DNA of 64,000 nucleotides from Gayadomonas joobiniege G7 (GTDB lineage Bacteria > Pseudomonadota > Gammaproteobacteria > Enterobacterales > Alteromonadaceae): contig NZ_AMRX01000006.1 in assembly GCF_000300815.1 (NCBI RefSeq), positions 186,001-250,000 on the forward strand. The letters are read 5' to 3'. The notes beneath the pieces are model-generated. The model did no database searches. It was not told where the DNA came from and was given only the letters and a program-made list of their open reading frames with translations. The position numbers and the translations under genes are program-made. Shown one piece after another: positions 2,527 to 22,670 of this stretch. The stretch's first letter is position 1. Each line of letters opens with the position of its first letter.

Positions 2527-2555
2527 TTGATCTTAGGCTATATTTAAGACGTAAA
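2527..2555 (+). promoter_or_regulatory. Candidate ECF11 (RpoE/ChrR-type) promoter of mlaA-RND
   Basis: TTGATCT at 2527-2533, a 16-nt spacer, then CGTAAA at 2550-2555. It lies 30 bases before the mlaA start, with no other gene between. The same arrangement with the same spacer occurs at 14038 and 22642. It resembles the TGATCC-N18-TAAGA consensus known for Rhodobacter RpoE. Assignment to that sigma class is inference. Confidence 0.6.
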
Positions 2556-2584
2556 CAGCAGTCAAATGGATAAGGAAAGCAGTC

Positions 2585-3427
2585 ATGAAACAAATAACAA
2601 TTATACTCACTTTGTTTGTTGCACTAGCCTCTGGCTGTTCATCTGTGCCCGATGAGCAAACATTATCTAGTCACTCGCAAAATAATTCAGCCTCACAAAC
2701 ACAATCTTCAACAAAGTCACCACAAGAGCAACTCGGGCCTTACGAAAAACCTTTAGACCAGCCAGCCGTCGTCGCTTACGAAGACTATTATGATCCGCTT
2801 GAAAGCATTAACCGTCCGATCTTTGTTTTTAATGATTATGTATACCGATATTTTTTAATACCACTTGCGGAAGGTTATACCTATGTGGTGCCTCAAACAA
2901 TTGATGACAGTGTAGAAAATTTTTTTGATAATTTACGCGAACCCATTTCGTTTTTAAATAATATTGCCCAAGGTAAAATTAAAGACTCTGGTATTAGCTT
3001 GGCCCGCTTTGGCATAAATACAACATTGGGGTTATTAGGCTTGTTTGATACTGCTGACAGCTGGTTTGGTCTTGCTCCCAACGAAGTCGATTTAGCCGAT
3101 ACGCTGGCCTTTTATGGCATGGACTATGGTGCTTATATTGTTTTGCCTTTTATCGGTCCCAGTGATGTGCGAGATACACTTGCGTTTGGTTCAGACTTTT
3201 TTTTACACCCACTCAATAACACAGATGAAGAAACGGCAGGTCGAATATTACTTATTTGGGAGGGTTTTGATGATAACAAAGAATATCTTAAAAAGTACCC
3301 AGATTTAACTGAGCAGAAAAAAGATCCTTATACGTTTGTACGCAACTTTTATTTACAGCAGATCCAGCGAGATCAAGCAGCTAAACGTCGTCAAGAGGCT
3401 GAAAAAAATAATCAGCAAGAGGAATAA
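2585..3427 (+). CDS. mlaA: MlaA (VacJ) family outer-membrane lipoprotein
   Basis: A 280-residue lipoprotein. The signal peptide ends at an ASGC lipobox with Cys18 as the lipidated residue, followed by a Ser/Gln/Thr-rich linker (about 19-50). The family signature DPLESINR is at 70-77, followed by the amphipathic segments typical of MlaA. In E. coli MlaA removes phospholipids from the outer leaflet of the outer membrane together with porins. Shine-Dalgarno AAGGAAA precedes the ATG. The next gene, an RND/MMPL exporter, starts two bases after the stop. No mlaBCDEF genes are nearby, so here MlaA may work with the RND protein. The upstream promoter candidate matches two others in the window. Confidence 0.92.
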   Translation: MKQITIILTLFVALASGCSSVPDEQTLSSHSQNNSASQTQSSTKSPQEQLGPYEKPLDQPAVVAYEDYYDPLESINRPIFVFNDYVYRYFLIPLAEGYTYVVPQTIDDSVENFFDNLREPISFLNNIAQGKIKDSGISLARFGINTTLGLLGLFDTADSWFGLAPNEVDLADTLAFYGMDYGAYIVLPFIGPSDVRDTLAFGSDFFLHPLNNTDEETAGRILLIWEGFDDNKEYLKKYPDLTEQKKDPYTFVRNFYLQQIQRDQAAKRRQEAEKNNQQEE

Positions 3428-3429
3428 AA

Positions 3430-5808
3430 ATGCAAATCACTCAGCCAAAAATGGCGTTATTTATCGTATTGGTTTTTTTCTTTGGTAGTGTTTATTTAGG
3501 GTACCAAAGCCAAAATTTTGAGATGGATGCATCGGCTGATACTTTATTGGTCAAAGATAATAAACATTATATTCGCACCCAACAAGCAAATCAGAAGTAT
3601 GCGCCGGAAGAATTTATTTTAGTGGCTTTTAAACCTAAAGCAGAGGATATTTATAGCGCTGAAGTATTAAACCTGTTAGTAGAGATCTCAAATAAATTTA
3701 AACAACTGGGGCGGGTGAAGAGTGTCACTAACATTACCAATGTCCCCTTGTTTGCTGCCGGCGATATTAGTTTATCCGATAGCTTTAATGCCGATGATTT
3801 GAGCTGGCAAAATGCCAGATACAATGCAAATACCATGCGGTTAACTTTGCAAAAACACCCTTTATACGAAGGTTTATTAGTTAATCCAGCGCATGATGCA
3901 CTGTCGATGCAAATCGTTTTTAAAAACAATCCAGAAATTAGCAAACTAGACAAAAAAATTGTCTCTATTCAAAAAAAAATGCTAACAGGGGAGCTGTCCG
4001 CAGATCAGCAAAACGAACTTGATGAGCTGACTGAGCAGCGAAAGCAGATTAGCCAACAAGTTGATCAAACGCGTAGCGAAGAGATCCGCCAAATTCGTGA
4101 AATACTAACCCCATATCAAGACAAAGGTGAGTTTTACCTTGGTGGGGCTAATTTGCTGGGACACCAATTATTAAAAATTATCTCTAGTGATTTGGTGATA
4201 TTTGGTAGTGCCATTGTCATTGTTGTAACGTTAGTTTTATTAGTTCTGTTTCGCAGTATACGTTTTGCGTTGCTACCTATGCTCTCTTGTGCTGTGGCGG
4301 TGATTTGTACCTTAGGTTTATTGGCTATTTTAGGTCTTAAAGTAACGGTTATTTCAGCCAATGTGATTGCCTTGCAAATTATTTTAACATTGGCGGTAAT
4401 TATTCATATATTGGTTCAATATCAGGAAAACTCTGAACAGGCAAAAGATATTAATCATGCACAATTAATGCAGCAAACTTTGCGAGATAAAGCTAAACCA
4501 TGTTTTTATGCTGCATTAACCACCATGATAGGGTTTGCTTCTTTAATCTTTAGTGGTATTCAACCTGTGATCAGTTTTGGTTATATGATGGTGATTGCCA
4601 TGTCTGTATCATTGTTGATTAGTTTAGTTTTTTTTCCGGCAATATGTAGTTTAGTTTTTAATGACAAACAAAAAATCGTTCGACATAGCTTAATTCATGC
4701 GTTTTTAACTGGCTTAGCAAACGCCAGTAATCGTTTTAGTAAAAGTTTTATTCTGCTCGGGGTTGGTATATTAGCGGTAAGTATGATCGGCGCGCTTAAA
4801 TTAACGGCAGAAAACAGTTTTTTAAATTATTTTGACGAATCAACCGAGGTCTATCAGGAACTCACTTATATCGATCAGGAATTTGGTGGTTCTACTCCGT
4901 TTGATTTAATTTATGATTTGCCTGAGCAGCAGGCAAAACCCGACTTAATCATTTCAGCTGCAAACGCCCAGCAGGTACAAAAGCTCCATGATATTATGGC
5001 ATCAGATCCAGCCATAGGTAGCGTTACTTCAATTGCTGATTTTTTACGAATTGCCCAAGTGGTGCGTGGTAAGCCGGCGACCGAATATGAAATTACAGCA
5101 CTCTACAATACGTTAGATGACGACCTTAAAAACCAGATATTTAATGCCTATTTTTCGATTGATGATCAACAAATACGGATCAGTAGTCGGGTAAAAGATT
5201 CAACCGAAGGATTGAATCGCGAGCAGTTGGTTGCCGATATAAAACAAAAGTTGGCTGATGCTGGCATTGCGGCTGAAGATTATCAACTGACTAATTTGTT
5301 TATTTTATATCAGGATATTCTTTCTCGTTTAATAGATTCTCAAATCAATACCCTAGGGTTAGTTTACCTTGTTATGCTGGTGGTGTTATACCTTATTTTC
5401 CGGTCGTTTCGAATTGCTTTAATTGCGCTGGTGCCAAATTTAATAACCACTGGCGCTATTTTAGGTTTTATGGGGTTCATGGAGATCCCGTTGGATTTAA
5501 TGACATTAACCATAGGGGCTATTGCAATGGGGATATCGGTAGATGACACCATTCATTATATTCACAGATATCAACATGAAATGAAGCAAGGGAGCAATGA
5601 TCTCATTAAAAGTACCAACCAGACGGTTGGTTATGCGCTCTTTTACACAACACTTGTTATTGTGCTCGGTTTTTTTTCTTTGTTTTTTTCCGACTTCGTC
5701 CCCAGCGTCTTATTTGGCGTACTCACTGGCTTTGCGATGATATTAGCGCTTTTAACAGATATTTGTATATTGCCTGCAATGCTTAAAAAGTTTGTCCGCG
5801 CAAAATAA
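3430..5808 (+). CDS. RND/MMPL family exporter, probably lipid-related
   Basis: A 792-residue inner-membrane transporter with the duplicated RND plan: TM1 (about 8-25), a periplasmic domain, five TM helices (about 250-410), TM7 (about 437-458), a second periplasmic domain and five TM helices (about 630-790). The motif GISVDDTIHYIHR in the second half is typical of MMPL/HpnN-like exporters, whose known substrates include hydrophobic lipids. Residues about 168-222 of the first periplasmic domain are highly charged and heptad-like, suggesting an inserted coiled coil. It is co-transcribed with mlaA (two-base gap), suggesting inner-to-outer membrane lipid traffic. The substrate is unknown. Confidence 0.85.
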   Translation: MQITQPKMALFIVLVFFFGSVYLGYQSQNFEMDASADTLLVKDNKHYIRTQQANQKYAPEEFILVAFKPKAEDIYSAEVLNLLVEISNKFKQLGRVKSVTNITNVPLFAAGDISLSDSFNADDLSWQNARYNANTMRLTLQKHPLYEGLLVNPAHDALSMQIVFKNNPEISKLDKKIVSIQKKMLTGELSADQQNELDELTEQRKQISQQVDQTRSEEIRQIREILTPYQDKGEFYLGGANLLGHQLLKIISSDLVIFGSAIVIVVTLVLLVLFRSIRFALLPMLSCAVAVICTLGLLAILGLKVTVISANVIALQIILTLAVIIHILVQYQENSEQAKDINHAQLMQQTLRDKAKPCFYAALTTMIGFASLIFSGIQPVISFGYMMVIAMSVSLLISLVFFPAICSLVFNDKQKIVRHSLIHAFLTGLANASNRFSKSFILLGVGILAVSMIGALKLTAENSFLNYFDESTEVYQELTYIDQEFGGSTPFDLIYDLPEQQAKPDLIISAANAQQVQKLHDIMASDPAIGSVTSIADFLRIAQVVRGKPATEYEITALYNTLDDDLKNQIFNAYFSIDDQQIRISSRVKDSTEGLNREQLVADIKQKLADAGIAAEDYQLTNLFILYQDILSRLIDSQINTLGLVYLVMLVVLYLIFRSFRIALIALVPNLITTGAILGFMGFMEIPLDLMTLTIGAIAMGISVDDTIHYIHRYQHEMKQGSNDLIKSTNQTVGYALFYTTLVIVLGFFSLFFSDFVPSVLFGVLTGFAMILALLTDICILPAMLKKFVRAK

Positions 5809-5838
5809 AGGTGTCGCAAAAATTTCGTTCAGATGTCA

Positions 5839-5885
5839 CTTGTTATTCATCATCTCATTGCAGTATCTGGCTGATGAATAACAAG
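5839..5885 (+). repeat. Perfect 14-bp inverted repeat in the leader of the nuclease gene
   Basis: CTTGTTATTCATCA at 5839-5852 and its exact reverse complement at 5872-5885, with a 19-nt loop. No T-run follows on either strand, so it is not a classic intrinsic terminator. The right arm ends in AACAAG, next to the only upstream Shine-Dalgarno-like AAGG (5883-5886) before the ATG at 5899, so the folded form could hide the ribosome site. Confidence 0.7.
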
Positions 5886-5898
5886 GTTGGGATACAGG

Positions 5899-7761
5899 AT
5901 GAAACTTAAAAAATTATTATTCAGTTGTTTGATAGCAGCCGGTTTTGGTTCGGTGGCACAAGCAGAGGTTATATTTACCGAATACGTTGAAGGCAGTGGA
6001 CATAATAAAGCAATCGAAATTTCTAATTTAGGCAGTAGCCAAGTTGATTTAGGCGCGCAAAAATACCAGGTGCGTTTACATTCAAACGGTACAACCGAAA
6101 ATACTAACAGCTTGGACTTGACCGGGTTTGTTTTACCTGCAGGGGCCAGTTTAGTCATTTATAATTCAAGTGCTGATGCAGAATTTCAGGGCACTAGTGA
6201 TTTCAGCATCTCATCCAGCGTAACCTTTTTTAATGGTGACGATGCGTTAACATTAGTTAAAGATGGCACTATCGTTGATCGAATTGGTCAATTCGGGGTA
6301 GATCCAGGTTCAGCATGGCAGAGCATAAACGACGCTGACTTTTCAACCCGCGATAAAACCATTCGCCGGTTGGATTCTATTTCTAGCGGCGATGAAAACG
6401 CACAAGCTGTATTTCCAAACAGTCCCTTACAGTGGAAAACGTTTGCTCAGAATACCTTCGATGGTTTGGGATGTCCCGGAGAAGGGGCATGCTCGTCAGA
6501 TAGCGGTAACACGGATAACGGCGGCGAATCTGGGGAAGGTAATGGCAGCGGCGATTCATCACAGCCAGCTGTGTGTTTAAACTGCCCAGAGGTAGACAAA
6601 ATTCTCGATAATAGCCAATTAGTGATGAGTGATTATTATGCCGATGCGCTCTCTGCTGACAAGGCTGGACTAAAACAGACGTTAAATCAGATTATTAGCC
6701 GTTCACATAAAAAGCTGACCTATGCACAAGTCTGGACGGTGTTAACCGAATCGGACCAGGACCCAGTCAACAGTAACAATATTATTGAGGTTTATACAGG
6801 CTGGTCAGTGCCAAAAGCCAATAATGCCAGTGGGGCTCAGTCTAGCGATCAGGACGCTTGGAATCGCGAACATATTTGGCCAAGAAGTAGAGGGTTAACC
6901 ACGGACGAAGCTTATGCTTTTACTGATCTGCATCATTTAAAACCGGCAGACGTCAGTGTTAACGCAGCGCGCGCTCATTTTGATTTTGCGCTTGGCGGCG
7001 TGCCATTAGACGAAGCGAGTACAAACTCAATTAATCTAGACGCGCAAACTTTTGCCCCCAGAGATGAGGTCAAAGGAGATATTGCTCGTATCCTGTTTTA
7101 CATGGATACGCGCTACCAAGGGGATAGTTCGGATTTAACACCCGATTTGCAATTAATAGACGATCTTAGTCAACTGTCTGATACAAAAGTGGGTCGACTT
7201 TGCACCTTATTGGCTTGGCATAATCAAGATGTTGTGGATAGTTTTGAGCAAAATCGCAACAAGGTCATTTACGAATACCAAGGCAATCGTAACCCTTTTA
7301 TTGATTATCCAGAATTTGCAAATCTTGTATACGCCCACGAATGTGATTCAGAAACTGACAATCAACTGCCCGATATTGTTTTTAACCATGAGATCAGAGT
7401 AAATGCAGGTGAGTACGTCAACTTGGACGCTAGACCTAAACAACACCCTGTAGGTACACAGATTAAGTATCACTGGCAACAAATTGGTGGCAGTCAGGTG
7501 AGCTTTAAACCTGAGCTATCGGCGCTTTATTTTAAGGCCCCAATGGACGCGCAAACGTTAACTTTTTTGTTAGTACTGGATTACGGTCATACTAAGCTTG
7601 ATAAAACAGTCGCAATTACAGTCGTAGAAAATGACAAGGCTGAAAACGAGCAAAATACAGATCAATCAGATACAGAGCAATACAGCATCAGATCTGGCAG
7701 TAGTAGTTTTGCTTTTATACTCTTTTTTATCATTTTAATGTTCAACCGCCGCTTAAAATAA
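5899..7761 (+). CDS. Secreted endonuclease I family protein with lamin-tail domain
   Basis: A 620-residue exported nuclease. The signal peptide (1-22) ends at AQA. A lamin-tail (LTD) beta domain spans about 23-160, a Gly/Ser/Asp-rich linker about 198-222, the endonuclease I domain about 235-480, and a PKD/Ig-like segment about 490-580. The nuclease core shows WNREHIWPRS (about 321-330) and DLHHLKPADVSVNAARAHFDF-type residues, as in EndA/Vvn nucleases, which degrade DNA non-specifically. The C-terminus has Ser/Gly, a hydrophobic helix and NRRLK, like GlyGly-CTERM sorting tails cleaved by rhombosortase (inferred). ATG 5899 is chosen over TTG 5887 because the signal peptide begins there. Probable role: extracellular DNA use. 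Confidence 0.85.
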   Translation: MKLKKLLFSCLIAAGFGSVAQAEVIFTEYVEGSGHNKAIEISNLGSSQVDLGAQKYQVRLHSNGTTENTNSLDLTGFVLPAGASLVIYNSSADAEFQGTSDFSISSSVTFFNGDDALTLVKDGTIVDRIGQFGVDPGSAWQSINDADFSTRDKTIRRLDSISSGDENAQAVFPNSPLQWKTFAQNTFDGLGCPGEGACSSDSGNTDNGGESGEGNGSGDSSQPAVCLNCPEVDKILDNSQLVMSDYYADALSADKAGLKQTLNQIISRSHKKLTYAQVWTVLTESDQDPVNSNNIIEVYTGWSVPKANNASGAQSSDQDAWNREHIWPRSRGLTTDEAYAFTDLHHLKPADVSVNAARAHFDFALGGVPLDEASTNSINLDAQTFAPRDEVKGDIARILFYMDTRYQGDSSDLTPDLQLIDDLSQLSDTKVGRLCTLLAWHNQDVVDSFEQNRNKVIYEYQGNRNPFIDYPEFANLVYAHECDSETDNQLPDIVFNHEIRVNAGEYVNLDARPKQHPVGTQIKYHWQQIGGSQVSFKPELSALYFKAPMDAQTLTFLLVLDYGHTKLDKTVAITVVENDKAENEQNTDQSDTEQYSIRSGSSSFAFILFFIILMFNRRLK

Positions 7762-7768
7762 CGATCTT

Positions 7769-7808
7769 AGGTAGCTGGCGTAAAAGCTAAACTTTGCGCC
7801 AGATACCT
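7769..7808 (+). terminator. Hairpin after the nuclease gene, possible terminator
   Basis: AGGTAGCTGGCG (7769-7780) pairs with CGCCAGATACCT (7797-7808) with one mismatch. It starts a few bases after the nuclease stop codon. There is no good T-run, so termination may be weak or the structure may only protect the mRNA end. Confidence 0.5.
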
Positions 7809-7820
7809 GACAATTTCACA

Positions 7821-7848
7821 TGATCTTAAGCCCTTTTTCAGGCTATAA
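7821..7848 (+). promoter_or_regulatory. Weak copy of the ECF11-like promoter before the HopJ gene
   Basis: TGATCT at 7821-7826, a 16-nt spacer and CTATAA at 7843-7848, about 30 bases before the HopJ start. The -35-like element and the spacer match the three stronger sites, but the CG of the -10 element is CT here. CTATAA could equally be part of an ordinary sigma-70 -10 box. Confidence 0.3.
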
Positions 7849-7879
7849 TCAGCTTTTTAAGTTATCTTTTGAGTGTGAT

Positions 7880-8227
7880 ATGTCGTTGTTACCAGCCTTA
7901 CTGAAACAAATTAAACAAAATCCAGCTAGCATTCAGTTTAAACAAGTGATTGAAGTGATCGAAAGTGAGTATGTATTTACTCCACAGGCATTTAAAAATG
8001 GCGATTTAGAAAATACAGCAGAGCAAAACCAAGGGTCTTGTAAAATTCTATCGTTTGCCAAATTACATCAATTAAACGAAGCTCAAACACTCCATTTATT
8101 CGGCGATTATTACCGTCAAGATGTACTTCAGAACCCAAACGGCAGTGATCATCAAAATATCCGTAACTTTATGCAAACCGGTTGGCAAGGCGTGGATTTT
8201 TCAGCAGTCGCCCTGCAGGAAAAATAA
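7880..8227 (+). CDS. HopJ family protein
   Basis: A 115-residue soluble protein that matches the HopJ type III effector family over its whole length, with the conserved YVFTPQAFKNG and FGDYYRQDV segments and the usual length. Despite the name, the family is widespread in free-living marine bacteria without type III secretion, and its function there is unknown. The ATG at 7880 is used because homologues start MSL-ALL. An upstream in-frame ATG at 7820 would add 20 atypical residues. The ABC exporter starts four bases after the stop codon, so the two genes form one unit. Confidence 0.8.
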   Translation: MSLLPALLKQIKQNPASIQFKQVIEVIESEYVFTPQAFKNGDLENTAEQNQGSCKILSFAKLHQLNEAQTLHLFGDYYRQDVLQNPNGSDHQNIRNFMQTGWQGVDFSAVALQEK

Positions 8228-8231
8228 CCCT

Positions 8232-10058
8232 ATGTTTAAATTTTTTGAAGGTCTAGTTGCTGCTTTCCCTGAAGAAACTGCTTCTACGCCACCAAAAACC
8301 TTGTTTGCTTTTTGCCGGCACTACACCAAAGGCTGTGAAAAATACTTGTTCTTAATGGCCACTTTGACCGCGGGGTTGGCCATTATCGAAGCCTATTTGA
8401 TGGCTTATTTAGGTGATTTGGTTGACAAGCTGACCCAAAACACCCCAGAAACCTTTTTTAACCAGTTTCAAAACGAGCTGATTGGGGTGGCTTTGTTGGT
8501 GCTTGTCATTGCCCCTTTGGTAATATTTTTTCACGCTGTGATTGTGCATCAAACCTTGCTGGGGAACTACCCGATGAGGATACGTTGGCTATCACATAAA
8601 TATATGTTGGGGCAAAGTGTCGGTTTTTTTCAAAATGATTTTGCCGGCCGTATTTCAACTAAAGTGATGCAGACTGCGTTGGCAGTTCGAGAAAGTGTCA
8701 TGAAACTTTTAGATGTATTTGTATACATTATTATCTACTTTGTCAGCATGTTGGTTTTGATAGCGCAAGCTGATTGGCGGTTAGTGCTCCCTATTTTAGT
8801 TTGGTTAGTTCTTTATATCGGCATTCAATTGTTTTTTATCCCTAAATTAAAACAGGCTTCGATGCAACAAGCGGATGCAAGAGCAGACATGACAGGGCGT
8901 ATTGTTGATAGTTATACCAATATCAACACAGTTAAATTGTTTGCCCATACTAAACAAGAAGCTGACTATGCTCGCGCTGGCATGCAAGGTTTTTTAACCA
9001 CAGTGTATCGTCAAATGCGATTGGCAACCGGGATGATTTCATTGGTGCAGATTAGCAATTATTTGTTGTTATTTGTCATTGGTGCTATGTCGATTTGGTT
9101 GTGGAATTTAAGTTTAATTAGTGTTGGTGCAATTGCGGTGGCTGTGAGTTTGTCGCTGCGCCTAAATGGTATGTCTCAGTGGATCATGTGGGAAGTGAGT
9201 TCGCTATTTGAAAACATAGGGACAGCCACTGACGGCATGCATACTTTGAGTCAAACACGCGACGTCCAAGATAAACCACAGGCCTCGCCTCTTAAAATTG
9301 AAAAAGGTGCGATTGAGTTTAATCAAGTGTCTTTTAGGTATGGTGATATTGACGTTTTTAATCGGCTAAATTTGAACATTAAAGCTGGCGAAAAGGTTGG
9401 CATTGTTGGTCGATCTGGAGCCGGCAAATCAACCCTGGTTAATTTGTTATTGCGCTTTTTTGATATTCAAGCTGGCAGCATTAAAATTGATGGGCAAGAT
9501 ATCAGTCAAGTTCAGCAAGAAAGTTTGCGTGCACAAATCGGCATGGTCACCCAAGATACATCTTTGCTGCATCGTTCGGTGCGAGAAAATATTTTATATG
9601 GGCGGAATAACGCCAGCGAAGCTGAGCTTATAACAGCGGCCAAACAAGCTGAAGCACACCAATTTATTGAAACCTTATCCGATTTAAAAGGGCGTGTTGG
9701 TTATGATGCTCAAGTTGGTGAGCGTGGCGTTAAACTGAGTGGTGGACAACGCCAGCGCATTGCGATAGCGCGGGTGTTATTAAAAGATGCGCCAATACTA
9801 GTGCTTGATGAAGCGACTTCAGCATTAGATTCAGAAGTTGAAGCAGCGATTCAAACCAGCCTGTATCAGTTAATGGAAGGTAAAACTGTCATTGCAATTG
9901 CACACAGATTATCTACGATCGCAGCGATGGACCGTCTAATTGTTTTAGATCAAGGAAAAATTGCTGAGCAGGGGACTCATCAAGAATTGCTCGACAAAGG
10001 CGGGATTTATGCTCAATTATGGTCGCATCAGACAGGTGGTTTTATTGGCACTGAATAA
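8232..10058 (+). CDS. ABC exporter, fused permease and ATPase (MsbA-like)
   Basis: A 608-residue half-transporter with a six-helix type I exporter membrane domain (about 30-330) and a C-terminal nucleotide-binding domain. Walker A GRSGAGKST is at about 393-401, the signature LSGGQRQR at about 503, Walker B ILVLDEATSALD at about 522, and the H-loop in IAIAHRLSTI. It would work as a homodimer in the inner membrane, exporting a lipid, peptide or drug. The substrate is not readable. The start MFKFFEGL at 8232 was chosen because it follows the HopJ stop by four bases; an upstream extension would run inside HopJ in another frame. Confidence 0.88.
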   Translation: MFKFFEGLVAAFPEETASTPPKTLFAFCRHYTKGCEKYLFLMATLTAGLAIIEAYLMAYLGDLVDKLTQNTPETFFNQFQNELIGVALLVLVIAPLVIFFHAVIVHQTLLGNYPMRIRWLSHKYMLGQSVGFFQNDFAGRISTKVMQTALAVRESVMKLLDVFVYIIIYFVSMLVLIAQADWRLVLPILVWLVLYIGIQLFFIPKLKQASMQQADARADMTGRIVDSYTNINTVKLFAHTKQEADYARAGMQGFLTTVYRQMRLATGMISLVQISNYLLLFVIGAMSIWLWNLSLISVGAIAVAVSLSLRLNGMSQWIMWEVSSLFENIGTATDGMHTLSQTRDVQDKPQASPLKIEKGAIEFNQVSFRYGDIDVFNRLNLNIKAGEKVGIVGRSGAGKSTLVNLLLRFFDIQAGSIKIDGQDISQVQQESLRAQIGMVTQDTSLLHRSVRENILYGRNNASEAELITAAKQAEAHQFIETLSDLKGRVGYDAQVGERGVKLSGGQRQRIAIARVLLKDAPILVLDEATSALDSEVEAAIQTSLYQLMEGKTVIAIAHRLSTIAAMDRLIVLDQGKIAEQGTHQELLDKGGIYAQLWSHQTGGFIGTE

Positions 10059-10138
10059 AACCAAATAAAGTTGTAACTTTTTAAGTATTAACAAGGTCTT
10101 ATTAAGGTCGTAAACGTAGAATTAATAGTGGATGAATT

Positions 10139-10855
10139 ATGATTAAAAATTTTTGGCGTAAAACCGCACTGGCCGCCAGTTTATTAAGCAGCGCTTTTAT
10201 TGTGTCTGCCGCAGACTCAAACGAAAAAATTAAACAAGCCGTTGAAGAGCGAGTGGGTTTGGCGGTTGAAAAAATATTGCCATCACCGGTTTCAGGCTTG
10301 TCAGCGGTGTTAACCAATCGTGGTTTGTTTTATGTGAGCAATGATGGCAGCTTTTTTATTCATGGTCAGATGTATGATATGGATAAAGGCATGGCCAATT
10401 ATTCGGAAAATATTTTAACCGATGTGCGCAAGCAAGGGTTAAAAGATTTTTCTGGCCAAATGATTAGTTATAAAGCGAAAGATGAAAAATATCAGATTAA
10501 TGTATTTACTGACATTACCTGTGGTTATTGCCGAAAAATGCATAAACAAATCGAAGAATACAATGCGCTTGGCATTACGGTTAATTATTTAGCGTTTCCA
10601 CGTAATGGTATTAATAGTAAATCTTTTAGTGATATGGTCAGCGTTTGGTGTGCGGACGACGAGCAACAAGCGTTAACCGATGCTAAGTTACATGGCGACG
10701 TAAAACAAAAACAATGTAAAAACCCAGTCAAAGATCAATACGAGTTTGGTCAACAAGTTGGGGTCAGTGGCACACCCGCGGTATTATTGCAAGATGGTCA
10801 GCTGGTGCCGGGTTATCGGCCACCCGCTGATATGTTAAAAATATTACAAGGCTAA
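10139..10855 (+). CDS. dsbC: Thiol:disulfide isomerase DsbC
   Basis: A 238-residue periplasmic disulfide isomerase. The signal peptide (1-24) ends in VSA, followed by an N-terminal dimerisation domain (about 25-85) and a thioredoxin-fold domain with the active site CGYC at 128-131. The structural cysteines are Cys171 and Cys193, and the cis-proline loop GTPA is at about 211-214. It reshuffles wrong disulfides in periplasmic proteins. The stop codon is one base before the recJ start, the same dsbC-recJ order as in E. coli. Confidence 0.95.
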   Translation: MIKNFWRKTALAASLLSSAFIVSAADSNEKIKQAVEERVGLAVEKILPSPVSGLSAVLTNRGLFYVSNDGSFFIHGQMYDMDKGMANYSENILTDVRKQGLKDFSGQMISYKAKDEKYQINVFTDITCGYCRKMHKQIEEYNALGITVNYLAFPRNGINSKSFSDMVSVWCADDEQQALTDAKLHGDVKQKQCKNPVKDQYEFGQQVGVSGTPAVLLQDGQLVPGYRPPADMLKILQG

Positions 10856-10856
10856 A

Positions 10857-14037: not shown

Positions 14038-14066
14038 TTGATCTGATTCATTTTGGTGCACGTTGA
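14038..14066 (+). promoter_or_regulatory. Candidate ECF11 (RpoE/ChrR-type) promoter of the barrel gene
   Basis: TTGATCT at 14038-14044, a 16-nt spacer, then CGTTGA at 14061-14066, 75 bases before the barrel protein start. Spacing and -35-like element are identical to the sites at 2527 and 22642. The class assignment is inference. Confidence 0.55.
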
Positions 14067-14671: not shown

Positions 14672-14678
14672 ATACAAT

Positions 14679-14708
14679 AAGCAGATAAGGCAGCAGCCTT
14701 ATCTGCTT
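14679..14708. terminator. Bidirectional hairpin between the barrel gene and prs
   Basis: A perfect 13-bp stem AAGCAGATAAGGC/GCCTTATCTGCTT with a 4-nt loop, between two convergent genes. T-rich sequence follows on both sides, though without a long T-run. Probably a shared terminator. Confidence 0.75.
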
Positions 14709-14721
14709 GTGTTGATTCGTT

Positions 14722-15669
14722 TTAGCTTTCAAACATTGCAGAAATAGACTCTTCATTGCTGACGCGGCGAATTGCTTCCGCTAGCATAGAGCTTAGGGTC
14801 AACTGTTCAACTTTATCCACCGCGCGCATTTCAGTCGATAGAGGGATACTGTCGGTCACAATTAATTTATCGATTTGAGATTGACTGATGTTTTCAACTG
14901 CATTGCCCGAAAATACAGGGTGAGTCGCGTAAGCAAAAACTTGGCGTGCGCCTTTTTCTTTTAATGCTGCCGCTGCTTTACACAAGGTACCACCCGTATC
15001 TATCATATCATCGACAATGATACAGTCACGGTTTTCAACTTCACCAATCAGGTGCATAACTTGAGCAACGTTCGCACGAGGTCGTCGTTTATCGATAATC
15101 GCTAAATCACAGTCATCGAACTGTTTGGCAATTGCTCGAGCTCTGACAACACCGCCGATATCTGGAGATACAACAACAGGGTTATCAAATTTTTGCTCAC
15201 GCATATGTTCAATTAAAATTGGGCTGCCAAATACGTTATCTACAGGTACGTCAAAAAAGCCCTGAATCTGTTCAGCGTGTAAATCAACAGTCAAAACGCG
15301 GTCCACACCAACGTTTGATAAGAAGTCTGCAACGACTTTAGCTGTGATAGGTACTCGGGCAGAGCGGACGCGTCGGTCTTGGCGCGCATAACCAAAATAA
15401 GGGATAACCGCAGTGATACGACCTGCAGATGCACGGCGTAAGGCATCTATCATCACAATCAATTCCATTAGATTGTCATTGGTTGGCGCGCACGTTGATT
15501 GAATAATAAAAACGTCAGCACCCCGCACGTTTTCATTAATTTGGACGCTGATTTCACCATCACTAAAACGGCCACAAACAGAGGATCCTAAACGGGTATA
15601 TAAACGGTTGGCAATGCGTTGCGCCAATTCTGGAGTAGCATTTCCGGTGAAGATTTTCATGTCAGGCAC
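14722..15669 (-). CDS. prs: Ribose-phosphate pyrophosphokinase
   Basis: A 315-residue enzyme that makes PRPP from ribose 5-phosphate and ATP for purine, pyrimidine, His, Trp and NAD synthesis. It is nearly collinear with E. coli Prs: GRFSDGEI (about 33-40), the flexible loop [10 protein letters not shown] (about 93-102), and the PRPP-binding [11 protein letters not shown] (about 219-229). Translation starts at a GTG giving (M)PDMKIF, as in E. coli, with Shine-Dalgarno GAGGT eight bases before. It follows ispE by 42 bases on the same strand. Confidence 0.97.
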
Positions 15670-15711
15670 AGTGATGGACCTCAGGTGATTTTACTAAGTT
15701 ATACATAATTA

Positions 15712-16593
15712 TTAACTGTAGTCAGGTTCAGTTAATGACGAAAATTCTTCCATAATTTGTTTATGGACAGGTGACGATGGCAAGGTTTGCACAACATAAG
15801 AGGTTAATCCTTGTGGCGTACTATCGGCTATTTTTTGCGCGTGTTGTTGGCTCTCACAAACAGCAAAACAGCATGCACCTGTGCCAGTCAGTCTAGCTGG
15901 CGCGTATTCTACCAACCAGTCTAAGGTTTTGGCAACCGATGGATACAAAGTCCGTGCAATCGGCTCAAAATCATTGTGGCTATTTGCGAACGAATACTGA
16001 TCTGGATGCACAATAGTGCTACTGCGATTTAGATTTTCCGCGGCAAACATTTTTGCGGTACTGATATGGCATTTTTTATCAATCGCTAATACCAGCCATT
16101 GGCTGGTTATATTTGCAGGTGTTAATATGTCGCCAGTTCCTGTTGCGAATGCAGTTTCCCCACGAACAAAAACAGGCACATCGGCACCTAATGTTTGTCC
16201 AAGCTCGGCCAGTTTATCTATCGACAAATGTGCTTGCCAGATTTGGTTCAACATTAACAAAACGCTTGCTGCATTTGATGATCCCCCCCCTAAACCAGCG
16301 CCCTGTGGGATCACTTTTTTGATATTTATAGAAACACCTGCATGGGTATTTTGGGCGAAAGGTTTAATTAATTTTGCGGCTCGGTAAACCAGGTTGTCAT
16401 TGACACTGGTGCCGCTAAGATCACCGGTTAAATTAATTTTGCCAGATTGTTCGGGATTAAAAATCAATTCATCGGCGAGGCTGACAAACTGAAACAAAGT
16501 GCTTAAATCATGATAACCATCAGCTCTTTTTTTGGTGATGTGCAAAAACCAGTTGATTTTGGCAGGGGACAGACACACGTACTGAGATTTCAT
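15712..16593 (-). CDS. ispE: 4-diphosphocytidyl-2-C-methyl-D-erythritol kinase
   Basis: A 293-residue GHMP kinase of the MEP isoprenoid pathway. It begins MKSQYVCLSPAKINWFLHI; the SPAKIN motif (about 9-14) carries the catalytic Lys, and the ATP loop PQGAGLGGGSSNAA is at about 94-107. The start chosen at 16593 overlaps the lolB stop as ATGA, a coupled start. An alternative ATG at 16611 would add six residues but overlaps lolB by 22 bases. The order lolB-ispE-prs is the standard gammaproteobacterial one. Confidence 0.95.
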   Translation of the reverse strand: MKSQYVCLSPAKINWFLHITKKRADGYHDLSTLFQFVSLADELIFNPEQSGKINLTGDLSGTSVNDNLVYRAAKLIKPFAQNTHAGVSINIKKVIPQGAGLGGGSSNAASVLLMLNQIWQAHLSIDKLAELGQTLGADVPVFVRGETAFATGTGDILTPANITSQWLVLAIDKKCHISTAKMFAAENLNRSSTIVHPDQYSFANSHNDFEPIARTLYPSVAKTLDWLVEYAPARLTGTGACCFAVCESQQHAQKIADSTPQGLTSYVVQTLPSSPVHKQIMEEFSSLTEPDYS

Positions 16594-17186
16594 TGGCTTA
16601 GTTCGCTCCATTGATTTATTTTTAAAATAAGCCGATTTTGATAGCGTTCACATTCAATTCTACCGGGGAGTTCAATGTTGCCAATTTTTTTATAATCATG
16701 ATAGGTCAGCATCCATTCTTCATCTGCATTAATGCGAACCAAAACTTTTTTTGCACGTTTATCTTGATCAACACTCATAACAACACCTTGATGGCGTCCG
16801 AGCACCCAGTTGGCGAGTTGATCAACCGGAATCGGCCAGCCGATGACATTTTCAACTAAACGATTGGGCGCATTTGATTGATAAGTTTCACCGTCGGCTT
16901 GAATTTTAATTTGTTGGCGTCCACCCTCTATTTTAGCCAGCGAAATGCCTAATAACGTGGTTAAACGGATATCATAGTTATTTTGCACTTGTCGCCAATA
17001 TAAGTTTGCAGAGTGGCGTTTTTGTGGGTTAATAAAAGCTATTTTTCCAGTTAGGTGAAACTGATTGATTTGTCTGATATCTGTGATTTGGGTGTCATTA
17101 GATGAATCGGGCAAACTACTACAGGCGCTCAGAAAAACAGCGATCAATAAGATTAAAGTGCGAATGGGTATGTGAAAAGCTTTCAA
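16590..17186 (-). CDS. lolB: Outer-membrane lipoprotein receptor LolB
   Basis: A 198-residue lipoprotein with lipobox LSAC (Cys22). It receives lipoproteins from LolA in the periplasm and inserts them into the outer membrane. FHLTGKIAF (about 43-51) and GWPIPVDQLANWVLGR (about 115-130) are typical LolB segments. It is divergent from hemA across a 70-bp gap that must hold both promoters, as in E. coli, and is coupled to ispE by a 4-bp overlap. Confidence 0.93.
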   Translation of the reverse strand: MKAFHIPIRTLILLIAVFLSACSSLPDSSNDTQITDIRQINQFHLTGKIAFINPQKRHSANLYWRQVQNNYDIRLTTLLGISLAKIEGGRQQIKIQADGETYQSNAPNRLVENVIGWPIPVDQLANWVLGRHQGVVMSVDQDKRAKKVLVRINADEEWMLTYHDYKKIGNIELPGRIECERYQNRLILKINQWSELSQ

Positions 17187-17256
17187 TCTGACCGTCCATC
17201 TCGTAAAATTAACAAATTATCTTAAACTGAATCTACAGGCAAACTCAACATAATCA

Positions 17257-18510
17257 ATGGCTTTATTTTCTTTCGGCATTAGCTATAAAACAGCTCCGGT
17301 TAGCGTACGGGAGAAAATAGCGTTTTCATCAGACAGAATTGCAGAAGCAGCGGACTCTTTGGGCGCTAGATTTGGCGCGTTGGAAGTTGTTATCGTTTCT
17401 ACCTGCAACAGAACTGAAATTTATCTTAACGCCGAAGCCCTCGACAAAGCTAACGCCATCGACTGGCTGACTGAGTTTCATGGTATGGAAACAAACGAAT
17501 TAGAGGATTGTTTATATTTTTATCAATCCGATACCACTGAGCATTTGATGCGAGTGGCTTGCGGGCTTGACTCTATGGTATTAGGTGAACCGCAGATTTT
17601 AGGGCAACTTAAACAATCGTTTGCACAGGCCCGCCAGTTGGAAGCTTTGGGCACCAGTTTGTCGCGTTTATTTGAGCATAGTTTTTCGGTCGCTAAACGT
17701 GTTCGCACAGAAACTGGTATTGGTGAGTCGGCGGTTTCGGTTGCATTTGCTGCGGTGAGTTTAAGTAAACATATTTTTGCCGACTTACAGAAAGTTAAAG
17801 TATTACTGGTGGGGGCGGGTGAAACCACGGAATTGGTTGCACGCCACCTAAGCGAAGCAGGTGTGACTCAAATGATAGTGGCCAATCGTAGCTTGCAGCG
17901 GGCGAAATTGCTCGCGGAAAGTTTTAACGCCGAAACAGCCACTTTATCAGCAATCCCAGAGTTAATGGAAGACGTTGACATTGTGGTCAGTTCAACCGCC
18001 AGTACTTTGCCCCTGATTGGTAAAGGTATGGTTGAAAATGCAATGGAAAAGCGTCGAAACCGTCCTATGTTTATGGTAGACCTTGCAGTGCCCAGAGACA
18101 TAGAAACACGGGTAAACGACGTTGATAACGTATACTTATATACGGTTGATGATCTGCAATCGATAGTACAAAAAAATCAGCAAAAGCGTGAACAAGCGGC
18201 CGCACAAGCAGAGTTAATTATCGCACAAGAAGCTGAGCAATTTAGAGCTTGGTTAAGCTCCCGTGCAGCGCTCGACTATGTTAAAAACTACCGTCATCAA
18301 GCTGACGAGATACGTGCCGGTTTAGAAGCGAAAGCATTGCGTCAACTGGCCCGCGGGGTTGACCCAGAAAAAGTTATAACCGAGCTTGCAAATAAATTAA
18401 CCAATCAGCTAGTCCATCCGCCAACAATGGCGTTGCGACAAGCGGCCCGAAATCAAGATCAAACGAATATAGAATTTCTTGCCGAGCATTTTGGCATAGA
18501 GTCAGACTAA
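17257..18510 (+). CDS. hemA: Glutamyl-tRNA reductase
   Basis: A 417-residue enzyme, first step of C5-pathway tetrapyrrole (heme) synthesis. The catalytic Cys50 lies in [26 protein letters not shown] covers about 105-121, the NADPH-binding [10 protein letters not shown] is about 188-197, and the C-terminal dimerisation helices are about 315-415. It is the first gene of hemA-prfA-prmC-sirB1. prfA begins ten bases after its stop. Heme made here feeds the ccm cytochrome c system at the right end of the window, but that is only a pathway link. Confidence 0.97.
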
Positions 18511-18520
18511 ACAGGACATT

Positions 18521-19609
18521 ATGAAAGAATCCATTTTACGAAAACTTGAAGCGCTTGTAGAGCGCTACGAAGAAGTGCAGGCTTTACTGGGTGATAGTGA
18601 AGTGATCTCAAACCAGGATAAATTCCGAGCCTTGTCAAAAGAGTACAGTCAGTTAGAAGAAGTTGTAAAGAGCTTTCAAAACTACCAGCAGATGCAAGCA
18701 GATATGGCGGCCGCTGAAGAAATGCTGTCAGAAGATGACGCCGAAATGAAAGAAATGGCACAAGAAGAGATCAAGTCGATTAAAGAAGGCCTTGAGCGCA
18801 TAAAAGACGAATTGCAGATTTTATTATTGCCGCGTGATCCCAACGACGAGCGCAACTGTTTTGTTGAGATCCGAGCGGGTGCTGGCGGCGATGAAGCTGG
18901 GATTTTTGCCGGTGATCTTTTCCGTATGTATTCACGCTATTGCGAGCGCCGCGGTTGGCGCATTGAGTTGGTTAATGCAAATGAAAGTGAACAAGGCGGT
19001 TACAAAGAAGTGGTTGCGCGCATCACAGGAGACGGTGCGTATGGCCAGCTTAAGTTTGAGTCGGGTGGTCACCGCGTGCAGCGAGTGCCTGAGACTGAGT
19101 CACAAGGGCGCATCCATACGTCAGCATGTACAGTTGCCATTTTACCCGAAATCCCAGAATCGGAAGCGATCGAAATTAACCCAGCCGAACTTAGAATTGA
19201 TACTTACCGTGCTTCTGGGGCTGGTGGTCAGCACGTAAATAAAACGGATTCGGCGGTTCGCATTACTCACTTACCCACTGGTGTTGTGGTTGAATGTCAG
19301 GATGAGCGCTCACAGCATAAAAATAAAGCCAAAGCTATGTCAGTTTTGGTCGCTCGGTTACAAGCGGCCGAAGACGAAAAACGCCGTAGTCAAGAAGCGG
19401 ATACCAGAAGAAGTATCATAGGCAGTGGTGACCGTTCAGAGCGTATTCGCACTTATAATTACCCGCAAAGCCGGATCACCGATCACCGTATTAATCTAAC
19501 TTTGTATCGCTTAAATGAAGTGATGGAAGGTGATTTAGACGTAGTGATTGATCCACTAGTACAAGAACACCAAGCCGATCAACTAGCGGCCCTGGCACAG
19601 GATAATTAA
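18521..19609 (+). CDS. prfA: Peptide chain release factor 1
   Basis: A 362-residue class I release factor that reads UAA and UAG. The stop-recognition tripeptide P-x-T is PET at 190-192 (E. coli has PAT), and the catalytic GGQ is at 235-237. The glutamine Q237 is the methylation target of PrmC, encoded next. Its TAA overlaps the prmC ATG by one base. Confidence 0.97.
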
Positions 19610-20448
19610 TGCAAATTGAGCAAGCTTGGCGGCTGGCGAGTCGGCAAATTCAATCCGACTCGGCCATTTTAGATGCACAGCTTTTGTTATTAGCGGTTTT
19701 GCAAAAAGCGGACCGGAGTTATTTATTAACATGGCCAGATAAACCGTTAAGCTTGCAACAGGAAGCAGCTTATCAAAGCTTACTTAAAAGGCGTCTACAA
19801 GGTGAGCCGATTGCGCATATTTTAGGGTATCGTGAATTTTGGGGGCTCAACTTAAAAGTTAATGCTAGTACCCTTATCCCTCGTCCTGATACTGAAACTT
19901 TGGTCGCATGTACGTTAGCCTTGATTAGCCAAACACCACAAAAAAATGGTGTTTTATTAGATTTGGGCACAGGGACAGGCGCGATAGCTTTAGCGTTAAA
20001 ATCGGAATTACCGGACTGGGAAATTGATGCAGTTGAGTTTAATGCCGAAGCTGCAGAGTTGGCCCGAGAAAATTCAAAAGCCCTTAAGCTGCCAATAAAT
20101 ATTTATCAAGGGAGTTGGTTCAAGCCGCTGGCGAGCCAGACATACCATTTCATCGTTAGCAATCCCCCTTATATTGACGCAGACGATCCGCATTTATCAC
20201 AGGGGGATGTAAGATTTGAACCCAAATCAGCATTAGTGGCCCATGAGCACGGGTTAGCCGATTTTATTCAAATAGCCCGCGAAGCCCGGTCTTATTTAAA
20301 ATGCAAAGGGTATTTGTTGTTTGAACATGGTTATTCACAAAGTGATCAGGTTCAACAGATTTTGCAAGAAGCTGGTTATACTGATATCGCAAGCCACCGA
20401 GACCTGGCCGGGCAAGCAAGAGTGACAGTCGGGCAATTGAAAAAATAA
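19609..20448 (+). CDS. prmC: Release factor glutamine methyltransferase PrmC
   Basis: A 279-residue SAM-dependent enzyme that N5-methylates the GGQ glutamine of RF1 and RF2. The N-terminal helical domain is about 1-80, PRPDTETLV about 92-100, the SAM motif LDLGTGTGAIAL about 117-128, and the substrate motif NPPY at 185-188. It overlaps prfA by one base (TAATG), and its partner RF1 is directly upstream. Confidence 0.95.
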   Translation: MQIEQAWRLASRQIQSDSAILDAQLLLLAVLQKADRSYLLTWPDKPLSLQQEAAYQSLLKRRLQGEPIAHILGYREFWGLNLKVNASTLIPRPDTETLVACTLALISQTPQKNGVLLDLGTGTGAIALALKSELPDWEIDAVEFNAEAAELARENSKALKLPINIYQGSWFKPLASQTYHFIVSNPPYIDADDPHLSQGDVRFEPKSALVAHEHGLADFIQIAREARSYLKCKGYLLFEHGYSQSDQVQQILQEAGYTDIASHRDLAGQARVTVGQLKK

Positions 20449-20496
20449 AGTTCACCCATATATGGCTAATGAGCAAGCTAGTTTGGATGAAAAACA

Positions 20497-21264
20497 TTGA
20501 AAACACCAGTTTATATCATTGATACTTATTTAACTTTGGCGCAAAAGTTGTACTCAGGCCATGAACTGTCGCAAGCAACTTCGGCTTTTGAATCGCTAAA
20601 AAAAGGCGTGCAATCTATTTGCGCAGGCAAAATTAAAGACGTAGATAAAATTCAACAGGTTCTTGAATACTTTTATACTGAGCAACTATTTAGTTTGCCG
20701 CCACGTGATAAAACACTTGCGGCTTTTGATTTGCTTCAAGCCGTAACAAGTCATACTGGTACAGCCCCTGTTATGACAGTGATTTTAAGCGATTGTTTAC
20801 GTTCAATTGGGTTAGCTGCTGATCCTGTTATTGCAGGTCAAAAGCTTTTGCTGCGAATTGATATGGGCGAAAACCAATACGTTTTTATTGAAGCAAGCCA
20901 AGGACAAAGCCTAGAGTGGGCCCAGGTTGAAGCCTATTTAGGGAAAGTGCGCAAAGATAAAAAAATCGAAGTACCGCAAGCAAATTCAATCGTACTCCTT
21001 TTATTATCCTTATACAAAGCTGCCTGCATTGATGCTGAAGACTATGCAAAAGCATTGGCAATTACAGATTTATTAGTTGCCCAAGAACCTGATAACCCTT
21101 ACGAACGACGCGATCGTGGTTTTTTATTGCAGCAATTAGACTGCGACGCGTTTGCGGTTGAAGACTATAAATTTTTTGTGCAAAAATGCCCAAGCGATCC
21201 GAGTGCACAAATTATTCAGTTACAATTAGAAAATATCAACCGAAATACTCAGCCAATACATTAA
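20497..21264 (+). CDS. sirB1: SirB1 family protein
   Basis: A 255-residue cytoplasmic protein of the SirB1 family: a transglutaminase-like N-terminal half with an Ala/Pro-rich core (about 80-150) followed by a TPR-like C-terminal region (about 165-250). Its function is unclear in all bacteria, but the gene follows prmC in many gammaproteobacteria, as here; sirB2 is absent from this position. It begins with TTG (KTPVYIIDTY follows), preceded by GGATGA about nine bases upstream, and no in-frame ATG lies nearby. Confidence 0.8.
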   Translation: MKTPVYIIDTYLTLAQKLYSGHELSQATSAFESLKKGVQSICAGKIKDVDKIQQVLEYFYTEQLFSLPPRDKTLAAFDLLQAVTSHTGTAPVMTVILSDCLRSIGLAADPVIAGQKLLLRIDMGENQYVFIEASQGQSLEWAQVEAYLGKVRKDKKIEVPQANSIVLLLLSLYKAACIDAEDYAKALAITDLLVAQEPDNPYERRDRGFLLQQLDCDAFAVEDYKFFVQKCPSDPSAQIIQLQLENINRNTQPIH

Positions 21265-21274
21265 GCAGGATGTC

Positions 21275-22021
21275 ATGCAGCCGGTAAATTTAGATAAACA
21301 AAATAAACAAGTTATTATCCGCAAACAATCACCTAAAAGAGTGTTTGATTGGTATAAAGCGGGTTTTAACTTATTCAAAGCAGACAAATTTAATTGGATC
21401 AGCATAAGTATTGCTGCTTGGGTGATGGCGCTCCTTGCAACCCTAATTCCTTTTATTGGTGAAATAGTGTTAAGTCTATTATTGCCGGGTGTGTTTGCGA
21501 TAGCGCATCATAGCGATCGCGAACAAGATTTTAAAGCTGAATTATTATTTGCTGGTTTTAAACATAGGTTGGGACCGCTTTTGCAGCTGTTTGTTATAAA
21601 CTTTGCATTTTCTATCATTTGTGTTTTGATAACCGGCTCAATTACTGGGATTGATTTATCTGCGTTGGCTGATACTCAGCAGTGGCTGTATTTTATGCAA
21701 GTGGCTGGGCTGGTGTATTTGCCGTTTTTTGTGTTAGTGGTGCTAACCGCTGGCATTATCATGCTTTATGACCTTAAATGTTGGCCAGCTTTTAAACTTG
21801 CAATTCAAGGCGGCTTGGCAAATTTACCTGGTTTATTGATATTTACCTTAGTCACCTTGTTTGCTGCTATGTTGGCCAGTATTCCAATGTTTCTTGGTTT
21901 GCTGGTATTCATACCTATCTTACATGCGACAATTTATTATTTGGTCAGTGATATTTTTTATTGCCGCGAGCAATTTAAGGTACCCTATGAAAAATCAGCA
22001 GAAGACAGTTTTTATGTATAA
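21275..22021 (+). CDS. BPSS1780-like integral membrane protein
   Basis: A 248-residue protein with about five or six hydrophobic helices (about 40-60, 62-85, 108-128, 145-175, 190-235), short loops and a cytoplasmic N-terminus containing RVFDWYKAGFNLFK. It resembles the BPSS1780/DUF2189-like family of inner-membrane proteins of unknown function. It starts ten bases after sirB1 with AGGATG as ribosome site, and a nitroreductase gene starts 14 bases after its stop, so it belongs to the hemA operon tail. Confidence 0.65.
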   Translation: MQPVNLDKQNKQVIIRKQSPKRVFDWYKAGFNLFKADKFNWISISIAAWVMALLATLIPFIGEIVLSLLLPGVFAIAHHSDREQDFKAELLFAGFKHRLGPLLQLFVINFAFSIICVLITGSITGIDLSALADTQQWLYFMQVAGLVYLPFFVLVVLTAGIIMLYDLKCWPAFKLAIQGGLANLPGLLIFTLVTLFAAMLASIPMFLGLLVFIPILHATIYYLVSDIFYCREQFKVPYEKSAEDSFYV

Positions 22022-22035
22022 AAAAGGAAGTTAGC

Positions 22036-22584
22036 ATGCAGGCATTACAACTTTTATTAAATCGAACGTCATACAATAAATTAGCCGAACCTGCGCCTAC
22101 TGGCGAAGCATTAGATAATATTTTTAAAGCGGCAGTCGCAGTGCCTGATCATGGCGCTTTAACCCCATACAGGTTTATTGTTTTTAAAGATAAAGCGTTA
22201 ACCGATCTTGGCGAAATTTTTGCCGAAGCGGCTGAAGCAGAACAGGCGGATTGTGAGCAAATAGAAAAAGCTAAACAGATGCCTCAACGGGCACCTTTAG
22301 TGATTGCGGTTGTTGTGAGTTTGACCCCAGACCATAAAATTCCAGAAAGTGAACAGAGGTTAACCGCGGGCTGCGCAGCCCATGCAATGCAAATGGCTGC
22401 GGTTGCGCAAGGATTTCAAGGGATTTGGCGATCAGGTGCGTACAGTTATAACGCCCACGTTAAGCAACAGCTAAAACTGTCTGAAAATGAACATATTGTT
22501 GGTTTTTTATACTTAGGTAGTGCCATTGGCGAAGTACCAGAAAAATCTCGTCCAGATGTAAAAAACTATATTCAATATTGGTGA
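22036..22584 (+). CDS. ydjA: Nitroreductase family protein, YdjA-like
   Basis: A 182-residue minimal nitroreductase matching YdjA of E. coli in length and in AVAVPDHGALTPYRF (about 35-49). It binds FMN as a homodimer and reduces nitro compounds or quinones with NAD(P)H; the physiological substrate is unknown. It lies 14 bases after the membrane protein gene with AAAGGAAG as Shine-Dalgarno, and is last in the run that begins at hemA. Confidence 0.85.
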   Translation: MQALQLLLNRTSYNKLAEPAPTGEALDNIFKAAVAVPDHGALTPYRFIVFKDKALTDLGEIFAEAAEAEQADCEQIEKAKQMPQRAPLVIAVVVSLTPDHKIPESEQRLTAGCAAHAMQMAAVAQGFQGIWRSGAYSYNAHVKQQLKLSENEHIVGFLYLGSAIGEVPEKSRPDVKNYIQYW

Positions 22585-22641
22585 TCCCTTCTTTTTAAAG
22601 ATTTTGTTTTTGACCATCACCTAAAAATAACCTTTTTGGAT

Positions 22642-22670
22642 TTGATCTGTGCTAACTTTTAATTCGTTAA
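22642..22670 (+). promoter_or_regulatory. Candidate ECF11 (RpoE/ChrR-type) promoter of the photolyase-CFA operon
   Basis: TTGATCT at 22642-22648, a 16-nt spacer, then CGTTAA at 22665-22670, 25 bases before the first gene of the operon. The same element precedes mlaA and the barrel gene. Operons of this content are known ChrR/RpoE targets in other proteobacteria, which makes this the best supported of the sites. Confidence 0.65.

Follow-up and report, generated by a model that had tools for sequence, protein, structure and literature searches.

A predicted ECF11 RpoE-ChrR regulon in Gayadomonas joobiniege with candidate species-level promoters at an mlaA-RND unit and an outer-membrane barrel gene

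Three copies of one promoter element in the DNA of the marine bacterium Gayadomonas joobiniege G7 are most probably read by an ECF11-type RpoE sigma factor that is held by its anti-sigma factor ChrR; one copy lies ahead of a core operon of the regulon, and the other two would make an mlaA-RND transporter unit and a small outer-membrane barrel gene species-level recruits beside it. The sigma switch and the core are known, while the handling of singlet-oxygen damage at the outer membrane is much less clear. The stretch that we analysed (the window, 64,000 nt) is G000:C7:186001-250000 of the organism's own assembly, G000 (3.91 Mb, 8 contigs).

Three promoter elements in the window

The window contains exactly three copies of TTGATCT-N16-CGTWRA, all of them on the plus strand, against an expectation of 0.03; none of 100 shuffles of the window gave three. 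The elements are real and exceed chance, and each lies precisely where the initial annotation had placed it:

2527..2555, plus strand: predicted ECF11-type promoter of the mlaA-RND unit, TTGATCT-N16-CGTAAA; 14.8 bits, rank 3 in the window
14038..14066, plus strand: predicted ECF11-type promoter of the barrel gene, TTGATCT-N16-CGTTGA; 17.0 bits, rank 1 in the window
22642..22670, plus strand: ECF11-type promoter of the DUF523-phrB-ufa operon, TTGATCT-N16-CGTTAA; 16.4 bits, rank 2 in the window

Between the element's final base and the start codon lie 29 nt for mlaA, 74 nt for the barrel and 24 nt for DUF523. The element had first been likened to the Rhodobacter consensus TGATCC-N18-TAAGA; the better match is TGATCC-N16-CGTAWT, the gammaproteobacterial form given for Shewanella RpoE2 in excerpts of PMC4336711. 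A simple sigma-70 consensus scan, which is a weak test, found no plus-strand match ahead of the mlaA, barrel or DUF523 start, and an Rfam scan of window positions 1-32000 returned nothing at gathering score.

Since the motif was defined from the same three sites that it counts, the non-circular tests are a matrix built from other genomes and a set of spacing controls. The matrix was trained on 28 promoters (17 of rpoE and 11 of DUF523), none of them from G. joobiniege and all limited to exact TGATC, N16 and CGT. Scored over every position of the window, it places the barrel, DUF523 and mlaA sites first, second and third with the bit scores listed above. Three window sites reach at least 14 bits where 0.27 are expected; seven of 30 random windows contained a single site of that strength.

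Position rather than number distinguishes the motif

Could the DUF523-phrB site be the only working ECF11 promoter, with the mlaA and barrel sites being chance matches that happen to fall upstream of genes? The motif was chosen after the sites had been seen, and raw counts across the genome barely exceed those of the reversed control: TGATCT-N16-CGT is present 21 times and its reversed pattern 15 times, and another raw count gave 8 against 4. Pooled over spacings 12-20, the genome holds 113 places against 79 for the reversed pattern; among the 100 of these 113 that were listed (TGATCT-N12..20-CGTW), spacing 16 accounts for 14 and each other spacing for 8 to 14. We rejected genome-wide counts as proof of a regulon by themselves.

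Raw counts are not decisive; what is enriched is position, directly upstream of genes in the sense direction. A site counts as being in promoter position when no open frame covers it and a sense start follows at short distance; the gene calls used here are open frames and not annotation. In nine of the 21 copies of TGATCT-N16-CGT the site is clear of open frames and a sense start follows within 140 nt. For TGATCT-N16-CGTW, promoter position is occupied by nine of 15 sites, as against two of the 76 control sites with spacings 12-15 and 17-20 that lie 800 nt or more from the end of a stretch, nine other listed places of these spacings being left out (Fisher p 3e-7; 4e-5 without the window's three sites). 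The enrichment upstream of genes that the initial annotation had anticipated thus holds for position and not for raw number. The related form TGATC[ACG]-N16-CGTW is present at 43 sites and its reversed pattern at 23; of the 33 sites of this form that could be placed, two are in promoter position.

A half-site version of the matrix, run at 13 spacings over 283 kb with distinct promoter-position sites counted, gives three sites of at least 14 bits, all of them at spacing 16; the 12 other spacings yield none. With the threshold lowered to 12 bits the counts are four at spacing 16 against two in all at the others, and at 10 bits, a weaker control, five against ten in all. Both the rarity of wrong-spacing matches in promoter position, with none at 14 bits or above, and the ranking by an independent matrix count against a chance origin of the mlaA and barrel sites.

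An ECF11 sigma factor and ChrR encoded in the same genome

An ECF11 RpoE-ChrR pair had been predicted for this genome, and it was found on contig C8 with the same promoter form ahead of it. The ECF sigma gene overlaps the start of the ChrR gene with its 3' end (ATGATTAA). Its product carries PF04542 and PF04545 (regions 2 and 4), and its closest PDB match is Rhodobacter RpoE (2Q1Z chain A, 6e-34; next best 4e-14). The ChrR protein matches TIGR02451 with 190 bits (cut-off 124.5) as well as Cupin_7, and its residues 2-217 of 232 align to the structure of Rhodobacter ChrR, 2z2s. It retains the motifs HLEYCKDC, HTHKSLE and EHSP, which contain the residues that excerpts of PMC6852236 name as zinc ligands in Rhodobacter ChrR. 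Directly ahead of the sigma gene stands TGATCTagtgtttaaatccactCGTAGG; the TGATCT-N16-CGT element (17.1 bits) is 33 nt away from the start of that gene.

ChrR scores above the family cut-off in 41 of 60 related genomes, G. joobiniege included. In 23 of 30 ChrR loci examined (again with its own) TGATC-N15..17-CGT stands ahead of the sigma gene, at a distance of about 675-830 nt from the ChrR match; the other seven have no such element there. By homology and motif, then, the genome encodes an ECF11 sigma factor with a zinc-cupin anti-sigma factor ChrR, under a predicted autoregulatory TGATC-N16-CGT promoter. A second, weak ChrR match at G000:C4:223606 is a cupin protein whose neighbouring frames of at least 100 aa do not look sigma-like.

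The DUF523-phrB-ufa operon is a predicted core target

The 22642..22670 element precedes a tight operon:

22695..23648, plus strand: fusion of DUF523 (TudS-like) and DUF1722 (YbgA-like); PF04463, PF08349
23648..25099, plus strand: phrB, DNA photolyase family; PF03441, PF00875
25107..25541, plus strand: SnoaL-like protein; PF12680
25543..26289, plus strand: short-chain dehydrogenase; PF00106 (scanned from 25540, start picked by eye)
26314..27564, plus strand: FAD amine-oxidase-like protein, likely UfaD (methyl-fatty-acid desaturase); PF01593, with order and family as in excerpts of PMC7380195 and PMC5507510
27561..28319, plus strand: DUF1365 protein, likely UfaO (furan-ring formation); PF07103, 219 bits
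28309..29565, plus strand: CFA-synthase-like SAM methyltransferase, likely UfaM; PF02353, 285 bits
29562..30062, plus strand: chalcone-isomerase-like protein, last gene of the operon; PF16036

Furan fatty acids of Rhodobacter are made by UfaD (RSP1091), UfaO (RSP1090, DUF1365) and UfaM (RSP2144), according to excerpts of PMC7380195. Because the families and gene order of 26314-29565 agree with ufaD-ufaO-ufaM, a comparison with the Rhodobacter proteins by family and order only, this block is likely better read as a set of furan-fatty-acid genes. The phrB operon was correctly recognised by the initial annotation as a known kind of target; it is the label 'CFA' that gives way to furan-lipid synthesis.

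Conservation was followed through 30 DUF523 loci examined among 44 genomes with a match. Twelve of them have the site 52-100 nt upstream, in eight the operon follows immediately on rpoE-chrR, so that the site found is the promoter of that pair, and the remaining ten show neither an own site nor rpoE-chrR ahead. Within the genus the site is present in seven of eight genomes, G. joobiniege included, G004 being the one without it; the seven congeners are 63-72% identical to G. joobiniege in DUF523. The genus as used here includes Catenovulum: two loci match Catenovulum agarivorans DS-2 (G006) and C. sediminis (G002) without a difference over 200 nt. Control of a phrB operon by an ECF11-type sigma factor has already been published for Shewanella (PMC4336711) and Pseudomonas syringae (PMC5507510), both cited from excerpts. 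Judged by promoter and gene content, the phrB-ufa operon is a core target of the predicted regulon.

Other sites in the genome

Six of the 21 genomic sites score at least 14.8 bits, and all six are among the nine in promoter position; the next score is 12.8 bits. Outside the window, sites were placed as follows:

G000:C7:990610-990634: site at a short-chain dehydrogenase gene; 20.7 bits, the strongest scored in the genome
G000:C2:357750: site at a gene for a DUF2878 membrane protein; 18.6 bits
C8: site at rpoE-chrR; 17.1 bits
G000:C4:346349: site ahead of an azurin-like gene, at a distance of about 40 nt; weak, 10-11 bits
site at a GNAT gene ahead of an aminotransferase gene; weak, 10-11 bits
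site at an MCP gene; weak, 10-11 bits

The aminotransferase behind the GNAT gene is one that we take to be EctB-like. With 10-11 bits only, the azurin gene, the GNAT/ectoine-like operon and the MCP gene were rejected as secure members; three homologues of the azurin-like gene lack the site, and seven congeners gave no match for the gene.

For the dehydrogenase, variant sites with one base of TGATC changed stand about 60 nt upstream in four of the 15 relatives scored (G016 16.8, G002 14.5, G005 11.4 and G004 9.9 bits), and the remaining ones, among them G006 and G007, do not exceed 4.8 bits. The DUF2878 site recurs in G005 (18.7 bits), G007 (13.0) and weakly in G002 (7.8), and in G001 in a form with spacing 17. 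It was not found in G003, G004 or G006; there the DUF2878 gene lies on the ChrR contig, on the same strand, about 4.6-5.4 kb downstream. In the matrix comparisons among relatives, here and for mlaA2 and the barrel below, the upstream stretches start at the protein match and not at a verified start codon. Since some congeners keep the DUF2878 and dehydrogenase sites, missing conservation sets the mlaA and barrel sites apart.

The predicted mlaA-RND and barrel promoters lack conservation in relatives

The two units in question, with the hairpin that precedes the first, are:

2451..2491, plus strand: hairpin with U-run that probably terminates the preceding unit (RNA fold over 2436-2500 with -23.5 kcal/mol and z -3.8)
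2585..3427, plus strand: mlaA2, MlaA-family lipoprotein; PF04333, 209 bits
3430..5808, plus strand: RND/MMPL-family transporter, starting 2 nt after mlaA; PF03176, 126 bits
14141..14671, plus strand: 176-aa outer-membrane beta-barrel; PF13505, with a signal-peptide-like start and C-terminal F by eye

As the likely terminator at 2451-2491 ends the upstream unit (sugar-isomerase-like/MFS-like by eye), mlaA would need a promoter of its own; the plus-strand output of a simple terminator scan did not contain this hairpin. The transporter also matches HAE3 and HpnN in part, with scores below the respective cut-offs. G. joobiniege has two MlaA homologues, the other one lying at G000:C7:252511-253086, just beyond the window.

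A predicted promoter of the family stands upstream of mlaA with the correct spacing and position, and no strict site was found shortly upstream of mlaA2 in any of ten assessable loci of relatives (one more ends at a contig edge). One weak candidate comes from G001, of the same genus, where TGAACC-N16-CGTATAAA (13.2 bits) lies in the 182-nt gap before mlaA2 (locus L019 2591-2410); the other nine relatives score at most 5.4 bits. Nor does any of 37 mlaA-RND pairs from public genomes exceed 10.0 bits upstream; these pairs were drawn from 80 loci, the best of 562 candidates in a MlaA alignment scan, and five of the 80 also belong to genomes of the related set. A single-protein MlaA scan of public genome contigs gave no match. 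A copy of TGATCT-N16-CGT close to an mlaA gene of G012 was set aside, as it lies within the last part of the preceding gene's coding sequence.

The mlaA2-RND pair also occurs in Alteromonas, Colwellia, Rheinheimera and Paraglaciecola, and G020 has mlaA2 and no ChrR match. Given its presence in several genera and in this genome, the pair is wider than its ECF11 promoter.

The barrel gene likewise has a predicted family promoter upstream in correct spacing and position, the open frame before it being divergent, and homologues do not share it: none of the 15 examined, out of 16 other matches, carries the promoter, and 13 homologues that were scored (the own paralogue included) reach at most 6.5 bits. 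That paralogue, 44% identical and without the promoter, lies at G000:C2:666131. Between the barrel gene and the next, opposite gene there is a 13-pair hairpin (14679-14708), terminator-like on the minus strand and a weaker match on the plus strand.

That both sites are unconserved speaks for chance matches, and we weigh this against the matrix ranks and spacing controls above; on balance a chance origin is unlikely. A variant that is compatible with our main reading makes the mlaA-RND link older: an ancestral ECF11 promoter of mlaA2 would have decayed in most congeners. The G001 candidate is what favours it, its 13.2 bits standing next to a null 99.9 percentile of 13.4 bits for such a stretch. 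It is one locus of ten, however, with a mismatch in the -35 element and a longer leader, and none of the four remaining congeners that have mlaA2 exceeds 4.7 bits; as ten relatives and 37 further pairs were scored, a single value of this size is not far from what so many tests would be expected to give, and we regard such decay as quite improbable.

Outer-membrane proteins are classical targets of envelope stress, which counts for a second sigma factor with an overlapping consensus, for example an RseA-type envelope-stress sigma-E, reading the mlaA and barrel sites. This is very improbable, since Shewanella RpoE sites begin with GAACTT and end GTCTAT-like, unlike TGATCT-N16-CGT (PMC4336711, excerpts), and here the same element stands ahead of rpoE-chrR and the phrB operon.

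The reading that we prefer has all three elements as ECF11 RpoE-ChrR promoters, with mlaA-RND and the barrel as likely members of a known regulon at the level of this species, and we read both recruits as young. Their proposal as new regulon members by the initial annotation is upheld for G. joobiniege itself, where well-placed sites that score like those of the core make membership likely, and not across its relatives: conservation favours the phrB operon and fails for the other two units. The findings do not extend to a general connection between the regulon and lipid transport at the outer membrane.

Proposed response

We suggest that singlet oxygen or organic peroxides would disable ChrR and free the sigma factor, which would then read TGATCT-N16-CGTWRA and raise its own operon. 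The conserved DUF523-phrB-ufaD-ufaO-ufaM operon would follow, providing DNA photorepair and furan-fatty-acid synthesis, and, if polymerase uses the two further sites, so would the MlaA-RND pair and the small barrel that this species may have recruited. MlaA draws misplaced phospholipid from the outer leaflet; the MlaA-RND pair might thus clear damaged phospholipids at the outer membrane or exchange remodelled ones. The simplest reading is a response to membrane photo-oxidation that supplies new lipids together with an outer-membrane route by which lipids may be moved or cleared.

A more specific version is doubtful: the regulon would make furan fatty acids and also switch on a dedicated MlaA-RND route and barrel that move oxidised or furan-bearing phospholipids between the membranes. 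Furan lipids have been proposed to participate in ChrR turnover (PMC6852236, excerpts), so that such a transporter would also tune the signal.

If mlaA-RND does answer to RpoE-ChrR, the regulon would not only produce protective lipids but also put them in place or clear them away, the recurrent gammaproteobacterial MlaA-RND pair would gain a condition under which it can be tested, and the case would exemplify a regulon acquiring species-specific targets.

Comparison with known RpoE-ChrR systems

The cross-species core regulon reportedly goes back to Dufour 2008, as cited by later papers. In the open-licence literature we found no paper that combines ChrR with VacJ, ChrR with singlet oxygen and MlaA, or MlaA with MMPL, RND and operon; singlet oxygen, MlaA and sigma factor occur together, once each, in one paper, which by its title has another subject.

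Shewanella oneidensis RpoE2-ChrR, as described in excerpts of PMC4336711, is alike in the rpoE2-chrR overlap (ATGATTAA), the TGATC-N16-CGT promoters, autoregulation and a ybgA-phrB-...-cfa target. Its -35 elements mostly end in C, whereas those here end in T, and the available part of Table 1 in the same paper lists rpoE2, a Lon-domain gene, pgpD, ybgA-phrB-cfa and phr/csgA, with no mlaA-RND or barrel. Vibrio cholerae RpoE-ChrR (PMC5241685, excerpts) shares the motif, as TGATC-N16-18-CGTAW, and has a blue-light response in which CFA synthase is raised; its predicted regulon is large, and VacJ and RND are absent from the main text.

Rhodobacter sphaeroides RpoE-ChrR (excerpts of PMC6852236 and PMC7380195) resembles the present system in its zinc-cupin anti-sigma factor, photolyase, ufaD-ufaO-ufaM and short-chain dehydrogenase. 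There the target genes are spread over several loci, whereas here they form one operon, with mlaA-RND and the barrel as additions. The PSPTO_1043/1042 system of Pseudomonas syringae (PMC5507510, excerpts) likewise has a phrB-...-amine oxidase-hypothetical-cfa locus and TGATCC-N16-CGTA promoters. It also has extra targets that are specific to the species, although these differ from the ones proposed here and include a diguanylate cyclase, a glyoxalase and others.
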